A DNA stretch of 32,400 bases from Patescibacteria group bacterium. Its GTDB lineage: Bacteria; Patescibacteriota; Microgenomatia; UBA12405. The stretch lies in NCBI GenBank assembly GCA_018818185.1, contig JAHISL010000025.1, forward strand, positions 1 to 32,400, written 5' to 3'. Of this stretch, positions 15,214-28,215 are shown one piece after another. How positions within the stretch are numbered: position 1 is the first letter of the stretch; each line of letters opens with the position of its first letter. Both the position numbers and the translations under genes were made by a program. The notes beneath the pieces were generated by a model. That model made no database searches. It was given only the letters and a program-made list of their open reading frames with translations, and was not told the origin of the DNA.

Positions 15214-15513
15214 ATGAATAATCAATCACCAGCGCAAAATAAATTTATATCGCACTTGTTAAAACGCGATCCTAAACTTGGCGAAAAAGATATTCCACCT
15301 CTAGTAAATAGTTTCAAGCGATTTGTAAAAGTGGTTCAGAAAATCTATACCGAACCCCAAGCCCAAATAATAATCAAAAATAAAAAAAGGATTATTACGA
15401 CAGATATTAAAGAGTTTAAGAAGGTTTTTGACAAAGATAATCCCAAACAAGATTTACTTGATACATTTAGAAAATTTCATAAATCTGTAACCAAAGATAA
15501 ATATGGAAGATAA
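15214..15513 (+). CDS. Hypothetical protein upstream of the recombinase, 99 aa
   Basis: The short basic helical protein has 18 lysines in the 99 residues and no recognised family. It has a GAGGG ribosome site seven bases before the ATG, unlike the leaderless genes around it. The last 11 bases overlap the recombinase gene, so it is translationally coupled and may be a small DNA-binding helper, such as a recombination directionality factor. That role is a guess from position and charge. Confidence 0.7.
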   Translation: MNNQSPAQNKFISHLLKRDPKLGEKDIPPLVNSFKRFVKVVQKIYTEPQAQIIIKNKKRIITTDIKEFKKVFDKDNPKQDLLDTFRKFHKSVTKDKYGR

Positions 15514-17029
15514 TGAACCAAAATATAATCGTGTTGTAGCTTATATCCGAAAATCGTCGGAAGATAATAAAGAAGGTGAGGCTAAAAAGCAGTTAAATTC
15601 TCTTGAATATCAAAATGATTTTGTTAAAGAAGCAATAAAGAAATATAAACTTGAACTGGCAGGGCCAATTTTTGAAGACACTAAAACCGGATACGAGGCA
15701 TTCGTGCGCGACGACTTTGCTAAAATGCTCGACTACTTAAAAGACCATAAAGACGAGATCGACGGCATTGTGTGTACTGAAATTAGCCGTCTGGCACGAA
15801 ACTTTGCCGACGGTGGAATGATTCTGTGGTATTTACAAAACGGAACAATTAAAAGAATTTATACTCCCACAAAAGTATTTACTGATTCTTCCGGAGATCA
15901 GTTAATGGTCGCTATTGAATTTGCTATGTCAAAGAAATCAAGCGACGATACGGGATACAGAACGATAGAGGGTATGAAATCAAAAGCAAGGGTAATGAAA
16001 CACCCTGCAAGACCTGCAATACTAGGTTACTTTACCGAAGGAAAAATTGGGCAAAAAAAATGGATTATTGATCCCAAAAAAGGGCCATTAGTTAGACAAG
16101 TCTTTGAACAATTCGCAACAGGAAAATACACTTTTGATCAAATAGCAGATTATGCTTTTAATATCGGACTTAAATCAATTAACAAGAAAACTATTATTGG
16201 AAAAATTTCTAAAAACACTTGGAGAAATAGATTGAGTGACGTTCAATACACAGGTATTTTTGAAAGCGACGGAGAAAGAATTGTAGGTGAATATAAACAT
16301 TTAATAGACACTCCACTTTTTTATCGTGTACAAGAAATTATTACCGACCACGAACACCCAAAAACTACCCACCTAGATTACGCATATTCGGGAATGTTTA
16401 AGTGTGGCCTATGTGGTGGAATGCTTTCAGGAACACACAAGAAAGGAATTACTTATTACCGGTGTGGTAAACGGAAAACCCCTTGTAAAGATATTGCTCG
16501 AATTACTTATATCCCCGAAAAACAACTTGAAGACAGTCTAATGACCGCTTTTGAAAACATAGAAATAGATCAAGATACTTGGAAAGCAGCACGAGAATAT
16601 GTCGCTGAAATAAATCAACCTCAAAAACTCGATATTAAGAAACAAATTCGAATGATAGGAGAAAAGATTTCGGCAGAGCAAAATACCCAAATAAATGTAG
16701 GTAGACGATTTTCAGCGAACGAATATACAAAAATAGATTATGACCGACTTATGGAAGATAGCCGTCGTAAAGAAGCCTCGTATCGAAACACGATTATTAA
16801 ATGTGAGAATATCGTAAACGAACTCGACGAACTTATGTATCAATTCCTCGACAACATTAAATATGTCACTAAAAAGTTGAGACTAGCATTACCAGAGAAC
16901 AAAAGAGAAATGGTTGATATTTTTTGTGAGAACTTGGAGTGGAAAGACGGAAAAGCCCTATGGGACTGGAAGAAACCGTATTTTATAATCGCAAATCGAC
17001 CAAAAAATTCAACAGTGCTCCCCCTCTAA
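15503..17029 (+). CDS. Large serine recombinase (site-specific integrase)
   Basis: The 508-residue protein has an N-terminal resolvase domain with Y14-I-R16-K-S18, where S18 is the likely nucleophile, and the S-R-L-A-R-N motif at 95-100. Then comes a recombinase domain (about 165-285, including L-R-Q-V-F-E and N-T-W-R-N-R-L). A zinc ribbon with C301, C304, C321 and C328 and a C-terminal coiled-coil region follow. This is the plan of phage- and element-integrating large serine recombinases. The last 12 bases overlap the 3' end of tRNA-Asn on the other strand, so the gene ends at the likely attachment site. Confidence 0.92.
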   Translation: MEDNEPKYNRVVAYIRKSSEDNKEGEAKKQLNSLEYQNDFVKEAIKKYKLELAGPIFEDTKTGYEAFVRDDFAKMLDYLKDHKDEIDGIVCTEISRLARNFADGGMILWYLQNGTIKRIYTPTKVFTDSSGDQLMVAIEFAMSKKSSDDTGYRTIEGMKSKARVMKHPARPAILGYFTEGKIGQKKWIIDPKKGPLVRQVFEQFATGKYTFDQIADYAFNIGLKSINKKTIIGKISKNTWRNRLSDVQYTGIFESDGERIVGEYKHLIDTPLFYRVQEIITDHEHPKTTHLDYAYSGMFKCGLCGGMLSGTHKKGITYYRCGKRKTPCKDIARITYIPEKQLEDSLMTAFENIEIDQDTWKAAREYVAEINQPQKLDIKKQIRMIGEKISAEQNTQINVGRRFSANEYTKIDYDRLMEDSRRKEASYRNTIIKCENIVNELDELMYQFLDNIKYVTKKLRLALPENKREMVDIFCENLEWKDGKALWDWKKPYFIIANRPKNSTVLPL

Positions 17030-25337: not shown

Positions 25338-25604
25338 TTATCTATATACCTCTTTTCGAAAAGCCACCTCTACAACCTTAATTCTCCTTGCCTTGTTATC
25401 CACCTCAAAAATCAATCTCAACTTACCCATTCTCAATCTGAAATAATCCCCCAGTTCACCACTTAGTTTTTTAACATTGTTATTGTTCAGATAGTTGTTC
25501 AACAAACTAGCTTTAAGAAAAATTCTTTCGGCATCTTTTTTTGATAGTTTTTTAAAATCCTTTTTTGCCTCATCAGAAAAACCTATTTCAAAGTTTAACT
25601 TCAT
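25338..25604 (-). CDS. RelE/ParE-family toxin
   Basis: The 88-residue protein has the family plan: F-S-D-E-A-K-K-D-F-K-K-L near the start, L-S-G-E-L-G-D-Y-F-R-L-R-M-G-K-L-R-L-I-F-E-V in the centre, and a strand with V-V-E-V-A-F-R-K at the end. RelE-type proteins cut mRNA in the ribosome; ParE-type proteins poison gyrase. Sequence alone does not decide. It overlaps the antitoxin gene by 17 bases and is the second gene of the pair. Confidence 0.9.
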   Translation of the reverse strand: MKLNFEIGFSDEAKKDFKKLSKKDAERIFLKASLLNNYLNNNNVKKLSGELGDYFRLRMGKLRLIFEVDNKARRIKVVEVAFRKEVYR

Positions 25605-25866
25605 ATTCTCTAGCCAAATCTTCCAAACTGGTAAAACCTTTACCTCTGCCTTCTTTTTCCAACTTATAAACCAACTGTTGATCCTCCCAATCCTCCAGCT
25701 TTTCTAAGATAGTTTTAAATTCCTTCATACTCAACACCACCGCCTGCGGTTCAGATCTCTGAAAGATATACTTCATACCTTTTTTCTGAACATCTTTTAA
25801 AAAGCTGATAGCGTCAACCCGCATATCAGTTACTGTACTTATATTATCTTTGCTTGGTATAAACAT
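25588..25866 (-). CDS. Phd/YefM-family antitoxin
   Basis: The 92-residue protein starts with a DNA-binding N-terminus (DNISTVTDMRVDAISFLKDV), followed by Q-R-S-E-P-Q-A-V-V-L-S-M-K-E-F, the typical Phd/YefM core, and an acidic C-terminal helix that would bind the toxin. It precedes and overlaps the toxin gene, the usual order. A promoter TTGTAA-17-TATATT ends six bases before the ATG, so the mRNA is probably leaderless and the operon autoregulated. Confidence 0.9.
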   Translation of the reverse strand: MFIPSKDNISTVTDMRVDAISFLKDVQKKGMKYIFQRSEPQAVVLSMKEFKTILEKLEDWEDQQLVYKLEKEGRGKGFTSLEDLAREYEVKL

Positions 25867-25878: not shown

Positions 25879-25912
25879 ACATTTTCGTAACGTTTTTACA
25901 ATAGCCCTTCTG

Positions 25913-25938
25913 TAGGGGCGCTGCTAGCCAGCGCCCTA
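25913..25938. repeat. GC-rich palindrome between divergent promoters
   Basis: TAGGGGCGCTG (25913-25923) and CAGCGCCCTA (25929-25938) form an inverted repeat with one extra G, in an otherwise AT-rich gap between the antitoxin and type IV secretion genes. It resembles the short REP-like palindromes scattered in many genomes and could act as a bidirectional barrier. Confidence 0.6.
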
Positions 25939-25959: not shown

Positions 25960-28215
25960 ATGTCTGATATTGCTTCGCTTTGGAAAATTTTAGAAATCCG
26001 TCTACCTCAAGAAAACGAGTTCACTCCCGAGTCCATGTCTTCTCTTCTAAGCAACTTTGTCCAAATGAGCCACAAATCATTTTTCAACCGTATCTTTGGC
26101 AAAAAAACAACCATCACCTCCTTAGAAATCGTTCTTCTCGATGGACAAATTCATTTCTATGTCACCATTCCCGCCGCCAATTTCGAGTTTTTTCGTGCTC
26201 AAATCCTCGCCCAATACCCCACCGCCATCACCAAAGAATCAAAAGACTATTTAGATAGATTAGTGGATAAAAGCGGAGTAAACAATTTTTCGGAGCACAG
26301 CGAACGCGAAGGCGTAGCCAAGCCCGTAGGTAGCGAGCACCGCAAAAATTCGTTTACAAACGAATTATCCATGAGCCAATTAACTCTTGCCCGTCCCTAT
26401 ACCTACCCCCTCAAAACCAACCGTGATTTTCGTGACACCGACCCCCTGGCCTCAGTTCTTTCTCCCCTGGCTCGCTCCGCCCAATCCCAAGATTTTTTTG
26501 TTTACCAAATTCTCCTTTCCGCCCCTCCAAAAAATTGGCAATCGTCAATTATCTCCGTCATTCAAAACGGCATTGTTGTCGACAAGGAAAAAGGTTTTCG
26601 CCAAGCCCATCCCGACAAACAAGTTTTCGAAACCAAAATTCAATACCCTGGTCTATTAACCCAGATAAATCTTCTTAGTAACAACCCTTCGCTATTAAAC
26701 TCCATTTCTTCCTCTTTTGGTATCTACACCTCCCCCAGAGGCAACTTTATCAAGCCCTCTTCCCCCTCCTTTCTATACAAAAGAAACCTCAAAAAATCAA
26801 TTTTTCATCGATCTTTTTTACCCGGTCTTTCGACACAAATTTTGAATGTTGAGGAACTTTCTGCTCTTTGGCATTTTCCCACCTCGCTCACCAAGCTCCC
26901 CAACATCGCCTGGGGCAAAAATCTTTTCTCTGACCCTCCCGAAAACCTTCCTGCCGCTACTAATCTCGACGACGCCGCCAAGGAGAAAATCACCTTTTTT
27001 GCCAAAACCGAATTTCATAATCAAGATACCATCTTTGGCATCAAAGAAGGTGAGGATCGCCGCCGCCACACCTACATTATCGGAAAATCTGGTACCGGAA
27101 AAACCACCCTCATTGCCAACATGGCCATCGACGATATTCGTAAAGGTCGAGGTGTCGCCGTTATCGATCCACATGGCGATTTGTGCAACACTATTCTCGA
27201 CTACATTCCCGCCTCTCGTATCAATGATTGTTGTTATTTCAATCCTGCAGATCCAGATTATGTTTATCCTCTCAATGTCCTTGAAGCCCAAAACGAGTCT
27301 CAAAAAGAGCTTGTTGCCTCTGGCGTCATCTCAATTTTTAAGAAACTTTACGGCAATGTCTCCTGGGGACCCCGTCTAGAACACATTCTTCGCAATGCAG
27401 TTTTAACCCTCGTCAATACACCTGGCTCAGATCTAACTCATGTTGTTGAAATATTAACTCACAAAGAATATCGTAATCAGGTTGTCGCCGGCCTCAAAAA
27501 CCAAACCCTAAAAAATTTCTGGATTAATGAATATGACCGGATGGATGCCAAATTCCAAAATGAAGCTATTTCTCCCATTCTCAACAAAGTTGGTCAGTTT
27601 ATTTCCTCCACCAATATTAGAAACACCATTGCCCACCCCAAATCAAAGATTCGTATCGAAGACATTATGAACGAGAAGAAAATCCTTATCGCCGATCTTT
27701 CCACCGGAAAATTAGGTGAAGATAACTCTGCTCTTCTCGGCGCCATGTTAATTACTCAAATCCAGCTTTCTGCTATGAACCGCGTTTTCCAAGGCGAGTC
27801 AGAACGTTCTGATTTTTATCTTTATGTCGACGAATTCCAAAACTTTGCCACCGAAGCCTTCATCAAAATCCTCTCTGAAGCTCGGAAATTTAAACTAAAC
27901 CTTATTGTCGCCAATCAATATATGGCCCAGCTTGATCGTCCTATCCAAGATGCTCTATTTGGAAACGTTGGCTCCCTCCTCTCCTTTGTCGTCGGCAATC
28001 AAGATGCTTATCTTCTCAGCAAAGAATTTGGCCCAAAATTCCCCCCCGAAGACCTAGTAAAAATTGGAAAATACCAGATTATTTGCAAACTTAGTATCGA
28101 TTCCGAAACCCAAAATCCTTTTTACGCCACCACTCTCTCACCTCTTTCCTGTAAAAACCAGGGTCGCGACAAACTAATTCGCACTTCCCAAGAACGTTGG
28201 GGTAAAGTAAAATAG
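25960..28215 (+). CDS. Type IV secretion / conjugation ATPase (VirD4/TraG-like, FtsK-HerA fold)
   Basis: The 751-residue protein has a C-terminal P-loop ATPase domain: Walker A GKSGTGKTT at 375-383, a D-P-H-G-D motif soon after, and Walker B F-Y-L-Y-V-D624-E625 with FQNFATEAF. N-I-R-N-T-I-A-H and Q-Y-M-A-Q-L-D-R-P complete the TraG/VirD4-like pattern. The N-terminal 340 residues are of unknown type and include hydrophobic beta segments (LEIVLLDGQIHFYVTIPA). Such proteins are common in Patescibacteria and may drive DNA uptake, pili or secretion. No VirB4 partner lies in this window. Residues about 102-137 come from an inserted palindromic element (26265-26370). Confidence 0.88.
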   Translation: MSDIASLWKILEIRLPQENEFTPESMSSLLSNFVQMSHKSFFNRIFGKKTTITSLEIVLLDGQIHFYVTIPAANFEFFRAQILAQYPTAITKESKDYLDRLVDKSGVNNFSEHSEREGVAKPVGSEHRKNSFTNELSMSQLTLARPYTYPLKTNRDFRDTDPLASVLSPLARSAQSQDFFVYQILLSAPPKNWQSSIISVIQNGIVVDKEKGFRQAHPDKQVFETKIQYPGLLTQINLLSNNPSLLNSISSSFGIYTSPRGNFIKPSSPSFLYKRNLKKSIFHRSFLPGLSTQILNVEELSALWHFPTSLTKLPNIAWGKNLFSDPPENLPAATNLDDAAKEKITFFAKTEFHNQDTIFGIKEGEDRRRHTYIIGKSGTGKTTLIANMAIDDIRKGRGVAVIDPHGDLCNTILDYIPASRINDCCYFNPADPDYVYPLNVLEAQNESQKELVASGVISIFKKLYGNVSWGPRLEHILRNAVLTLVNTPGSDLTHVVEILTHKEYRNQVVAGLKNQTLKNFWINEYDRMDAKFQNEAISPILNKVGQFISSTNIRNTIAHPKSKIRIEDIMNEKKILIADLSTGKLGEDNSALLGAMLITQIQLSAMNRVFQGESERSDFYLYVDEFQNFATEAFIKILSEARKFKLNLIVANQYMAQLDRPIQDALFGNVGSLLSFVVGNQDAYLLSKEFGPKFPPEDLVKIGKYQIICKLSIDSETQNPFYATTLSPLSCKNQGRDKLIRTSQERWGKVK
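26265..26370. repeat. In-frame palindromic insertion inside the ATPase gene
   Basis: Imperfect inverted arms of about 30 bases (26265-26293 and 26340-26370) share GGATAA, GTAAAC, AATTTTT and CGG blocks and enclose a GC-rich core. The insert adds about 35 codons without a stop, giving a polar hydrophilic stretch (DKSGVNNFSEHSEREGVAKP) between two otherwise conserved-looking segments. It resembles Rickettsia palindromic elements in behaviour. Confidence 0.7.

Follow-up and report, generated by a model that had tools for sequence, protein, structure and literature searches.

The palindromic segment lying within a predicted ATPase gene of a Patescibacteria group bacterium (GTDB lineage Bacteria; Patescibacteriota; Microgenomatia; UBA12405) is very probably a copy of a lineage-specific, non-autonomous hairpin repeat that has spread through one family of ultra-small Patescibacteria (Candidatus Shapirobacteria), the minority of copies found inside genes being tolerated in permissive loops. 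The window, i.e. the whole stretch of DNA analysed, comprises 32,400 nucleotides (assembly GCA_018818185.1, contig JAHISL010000025.1, positions 1 to 32,400, forward strand). The best-known in-frame palindromic repeats within functional genes are those of Rickettsia. The original prediction had likened the segment to the palindromic elements of that genus, which proved apt as an analogy of behaviour, and had considered such events seldom recorded in Patescibacteria; indeed, no such report was found in the open-access literature searched, outside which most subscription papers lie. The following features were delineated:

25960 to 28215, plus strand: host gene, a 751-aa ATPase resembling a TrwB-type coupling protein or HerA (ORF; Pfam TrwB_AAD_bind and DUF87)
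26263 to 26372, plus strand: dispersed palindromic element, full extent (covariance model: R1 104 bits, E 5.9e-20; R2 88 bits, E 2.9e-16)
26264 to 26270, plus strand: outermost left arm TGGATAA, partner of 26365-26371 (sequence; 7-nt outer stem)
26365 to 26371, plus strand: outermost right arm TTATCCA (sequence; 7-nt outer stem)
26278 to 26290, plus strand: left inner arm GTAAAC-A-ATTTTT (covarying pairs)
26344 to 26357, plus strand: right inner arm AAAAAT-TC-GTTTAC (covarying pairs)
26287 to 26347, plus strand: GC-rich core between TTTT and AAAA, common to copies with differing arms (core/arm comparison, 73 copies)

As predicted from the window, the element is an imperfect palindrome with a GC-rich core and nested arms (26264-26371), in which GTAAAC (26278-26283) pairs with GTTTAC (26352-26357) and ATTTTT (26285-26290) with AAAAAT (26344-26349), and the ATPase frame stays open through it. 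Alignment of orthologues, one of the checks suggested originally, revealed that most of them lack the segment and that the only one with the same residues, in genome G020, is palindromic as well. The predicted insertion of 106 bases, adding about 35 codons, was borne out as regards the element and the in-frame gain but not as regards size: the loop measures 135 nt in the window gene and 42-60 nt in most orthologues, and the net gain over the nearest empty orthologue is about 93 nt (31 codons), 106 being no multiple of three. The designation of the gene as a type IV secretion ATPase is plausible according to Pfam (TrwB_AAD_bind, 2.8e-7; DUF87/HerA central domain, 1.4e-6) but falls short of proof, and the match to the TrwB structure is weak. 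An AlphaFold2 model of the ATPase, built on a two-row alignment, had a mean pLDDT of 36, too low to be informative; the insert-bearing loops presumably lie at the protein surface. Folded alone, the window element reaches -34.8 kcal/mol (z -2.27), which 7 of 200 shuffles equalled. Since this fold is only moderately unusual, a single sequence would not settle the hairpin, and the decisive evidence for it is comparative, coming from homologous copies and not from single-copy folding.

The surroundings of the gene include a short perfect hairpin (GTAGGGGCGCTG-CTAGC-CAGCGCCC) at window positions 25912-25936, some 25 bases before the ATPase start, and a stretch resembling it, GTAGGGGC, occurs in the ATPase loop of genome G011. 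A ParE-like toxin (Pfam E 1.6e-6) is encoded on the minus strand just upstream of the ATPase gene (25338-25866) and adjoins a weak Phd/YefM-like antitoxin match, below the cut-off. A large serine recombinase with Resolvase, Recombinase and zinc-ribbon domains (15503-17029), downstream of several unassigned ORFs, could mark an integrated element.

The refined covariance model detected 97 copies in 28 of the 35 genomes of the family (0-10 per genome), these genomes being for the most part incomplete assemblies from metagenomes, with each species represented once. BLASTN returned about 15 homologues in related genomes and no second convincing copy in the window's own genome (G000), in which the refined model placed a second, intergenic copy at C47:11593-11694. 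Beyond the family, the covariance model gave borderline matches in 5 of about 250 genomes of the class and in 1 of 332 further genomes sampled across the phylum; on this sampling the repeat family is essentially absent from the phylum outside Candidatus Shapirobacteria. Most copies are intergenic, 53 of them occupying 42 distinct gene-neighbour contexts, commonly between co-directional genes, where many fit tightly (orientation relative to neighbours: -E- 25, +E+ 11, divergent 8, convergent 6).

Covariation strongly supports the predicted hairpin. Indeed (i) among 14 homologous copies, aligned by sequence alone but with a structure drawn from the same copies, 11 pairs have changes on both sides, a number reached in 0 of 500 shuffles, and (ii) among 73 distinct copies, in an alignment that was fitted to the covariance model and so favours the structure, pairing is preserved in 95.1% of pair cells (69.9% in shuffles) and double-change cells number 339 (103 in shuffles). 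The stricter rule of invariably complementary outermost arms was rejected, as it holds only on average (mean longest stem 5.97, against 4.86 +/- 0.13 with swapped partners); this complementarity is weak in most in-gene copies, the 7-nt outer stem of the window being an exception.

Nineteen of the 73 copies examined lie inside long ORFs, all 19 on the sense strand, and occupy one loop each in proteins identified by Pfam as the ATPase, a GT4 glycosyltransferase, MurB, a class-II LysRS-like protein and a radical-SAM protein. The in-frame copies elsewhere that had been looked for on the basis of the original prediction are thus present in other genes; every counted in-gene copy has a single open frame across its junctions, in-gene copies being recognised by that frame, so that disrupted ones would escape the count. 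Site alignments and the refined search added further in-gene copies in the glycosyltransferase of G024, the MurB of G029 and the LysRS of G007. A supposed twentieth copy (L110) was rejected, its neighbour genes being antisense and the copy intergenic. The sense frames are hydrophilic (mean GRAVY -0.84 and -0.34 for the two frames used) and the antisense frames, open at least as often, are not (+0.51, -0.15 and 0.03); the sense-only orientation could thus result from selection acting on the peptide, with no need of a special insertion rule. Hairpin pairing is kept equally inside genes (94% paired) and between genes (95%), which could hint at a constraint on structure. Some neighbourhoods recur (L094-L132, e.g. 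G034:C24, G012:C45 and G002:C41), with copies upstream of and within MurB, or between and inside the neighbouring genes for the radical-SAM and LysRS-like proteins; in some cases two copies lie within a few hundred bases of each other.

Unrelated palindromes, too, occur in the loops that receive the element. The ATPase loop, empty in most other genomes, contains the window element in G000 and G020, a CGTCATTGCGA-type palindrome in G008, CCCTC-type hairpins in G010 and G023, a CCCTCC-type one in G012 and a GTAGAGACG-type hairpin in G028, the dispersal of these other palindromes being judged from pattern counts in the fetched loci only. In the tree of the ATPase, the four-member clade that includes the window gene has three different palindromes and one empty loop, and G020 is placed elsewhere. 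Counted as state changes in which gain and loss are inseparable, on trees with several weak branches, turnover amounts to 8 changes for the ATPase loop, 7 for the 7 glycosyltransferase copies, 4 for 5 copies in MurB and 5 for 8 in the LysRS-like protein; in the sister glycosyltransferases of G006 and G005, the loop is occupied by different hairpins. Loops of at least 45 nt have more stable folds than windows matched to them within the same genes, z falling below -2 in 23 of 61 loops and 11 of 183 windows. The five loops are hot spots for palindromes. A different type of in-frame insert, consisting of short AT-rich tandem-like repeats (AAATTGAAAATTG, AAATACTAAATAC), was also observed there, in the glycosyltransferase loop of G015, G004, G018 and G022 and in the MurB loop of G011 and G023.

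In the favoured explanation, the repeat would spread through the genomes of the family, possibly mobilised in trans or by recombination, and most copies would end up between genes. The in-gene minority would survive where a copy lies in frame and on the sense strand within a loop that permits it, the insert then being presumably translated into a hydrophilic, probably disordered peptide (NNFSEHSEREGVAKPVGSEHRKNSF in the window) that may be tolerated without having a function; no conserved peptide role is evident because copies at one site are not alike in frame and sequence. Counter-selection of other outcomes would confine the survivors to a few loops, which would also gather unrelated palindromic repeats. 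Since only five genes are concerned, fewer than random insertion followed by selection might give, a preference for certain targets may contribute, as may old inheritance in which the core was replaced; by inspection, the LysRS arms look partly inherited.

The comparison of cores and arms lends weight to another explanation, in which the hairpin sites are long-lived and partly inherited, a core of about 54 bp is copied or converted within a genome, and the locus-specific arms evolve by compensatory change or by templated (quasi-palindrome) correction. Indeed, four copies in G018, one of them within the radical-SAM gene, have near-identical cores (similarity 0.97-1.0) and arms that are at background (0.41-0.57; background 0.54 +/- 0.08) yet complementary within each copy, and the MurB and LysRS copies of G012 have a common shortened core and different arms. 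At the LysRS site, by inspection, arms are alike across genomes and cores differ, one being CGTC-like, and in G023 a CGTCATTGCG-like core lies within arms of the shared type. Either cores would be copied or converted separately or arms would be rebuilt at the site. However, near-identical copies at several sites of G015 share both cores and arms, which indicates that whole elements are copied as well, the identity of arms at the same site is barely above background (0.46 against 0.40), and no direct conversion tract was seen. Core transfer is a serious contender, though not the probable one; the further proposal that what moves or converts is the core of about 54 bp itself, spreading independently of the arms between hairpin sites with locus-specific self-complementary arms while the loops act as standing sites that exchange unrelated palindromes, is possible but rather doubtful.

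The strong covariation, the undecayed state of the hairpin in genes and the tight fit of many intergenic copies between co-directional genes would also suit a functional structured RNA or DNA element (a regulator, a processing site or a terminator-like hairpin) kept by selection and occasionally overlapping coding sequence. This is unlikely, as an Rfam search of the element gave no match, copies occur in both orientations relative to their neighbours, their presence at orthologous sites is patchy, and the cores shared within genomes suggest copying over conserved function.

A further reading would make the element a member of the REP/RPE superfamilies moved by RAYT-type Y1 transposases; intragenic REPs are reported from many bacteria, and in two Xanthomonas species distinct REPs occupy roughly one recB site (PMC3733652). 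Y1 genes are present in 16 of the 35 genomes, including G000, but the genomes richest in copies (G032, G015 and G020) have no Y1 hit. Y1 transposase was rejected as a driver, copy number being uncorrelated with Y1 hits across the 35 genomes (Spearman rho 0.00), and no mobilising enzyme emerged from this comparison. On inspection of the 73 copies, their ends resemble CGAAG and GAGC, with arms that vary, and no GTAG/CGTC tetranucleotide was seen at an end, GTAG being internal and confined to one core type. Membership in the REP families is not supported, and such an origin seems improbable.

Removal or skipping of the insert during expression (intron-like, intein-like or by translational bypassing) has one known parallel among palindromic inserts in coding genes, in Magnusiomyces mitochondria, as cited in PMC6649704; it is very improbable here, the counted copies, although chosen by their open frame, presenting no stop or frameshift that would require it. 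Finally, the idea of an ordinary variable protein loop that is palindromic by chance, compatible with the single-copy z value and the variable loop length, is refuted by the dispersed homologous copies, many of them intergenic, and by the covariation never equalled in shuffles.

That a streamlined Patescibacteria family has a system comparable to that of Rickettsia, in which several unrelated palindromes take turns in a few loops, suggests that selfish repeats have a recurrent way of lengthening the proteins of small genomes. The five genes in many genomes offer a natural comparative set for how repeats move and why certain loops alone accept them, and in annotation such loops should be read as repeat insertions and not as functional protein segments.

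Among known systems, the Rickettsia palindromic elements (RPEs) are, as summarised in two papers (PMC10969869, PMC3733652), dispersed palindromes of 100-150 bp; many of them lie in frame within genes unrelated to one another, and the one genus has several families. The Shapirobacteria element is alike in being a dispersed, multi-copy, hairpin-forming palindrome found in frame within five unrelated protein genes; it differs in belonging to another phylum, in being limited to a few recurrent loops and in having arms that can be locus-specific around a common core, and the likeness drawn here is one of behaviour. The GTAG/CGTC REPs (PMC3733652) are likewise hairpin repeats, mostly intergenic and in part within genes, but the Shapirobacteria element is longer, with no terminal tag seen and no association with Y1/RAYT genes; the insert in the ATPase loop of G008, which begins CGTCATTGCGA, resembles CGTC repeats. 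Bacterial MITEs share with it the short non-autonomous form, the complementary arms and the in-frame fusions, whereas arms of the Shapirobacteria element pair within a copy and vary between copies (G015 excepted), no conserved terminal inverted repeats common to copies being present, and no parent insertion sequence was found. None of the empty sites was near enough to the element to place its insertion point exactly. The coding palindromes of Nematomorpha mitochondria are also inverted repeats within genes, for which template switching has been proposed as keeping the arms complementary (PMC6649704), but these are perfect, have no dispersed homologous family and belong to another biology. In summary, the kind of element is known already, the precedents for in-frame palindromes being the RPEs and the intragenic REPs, while within the searchable literature the family, the host group, the degree to which loops are reused by unrelated palindromes and the decoupling of core and arms appear to be new.
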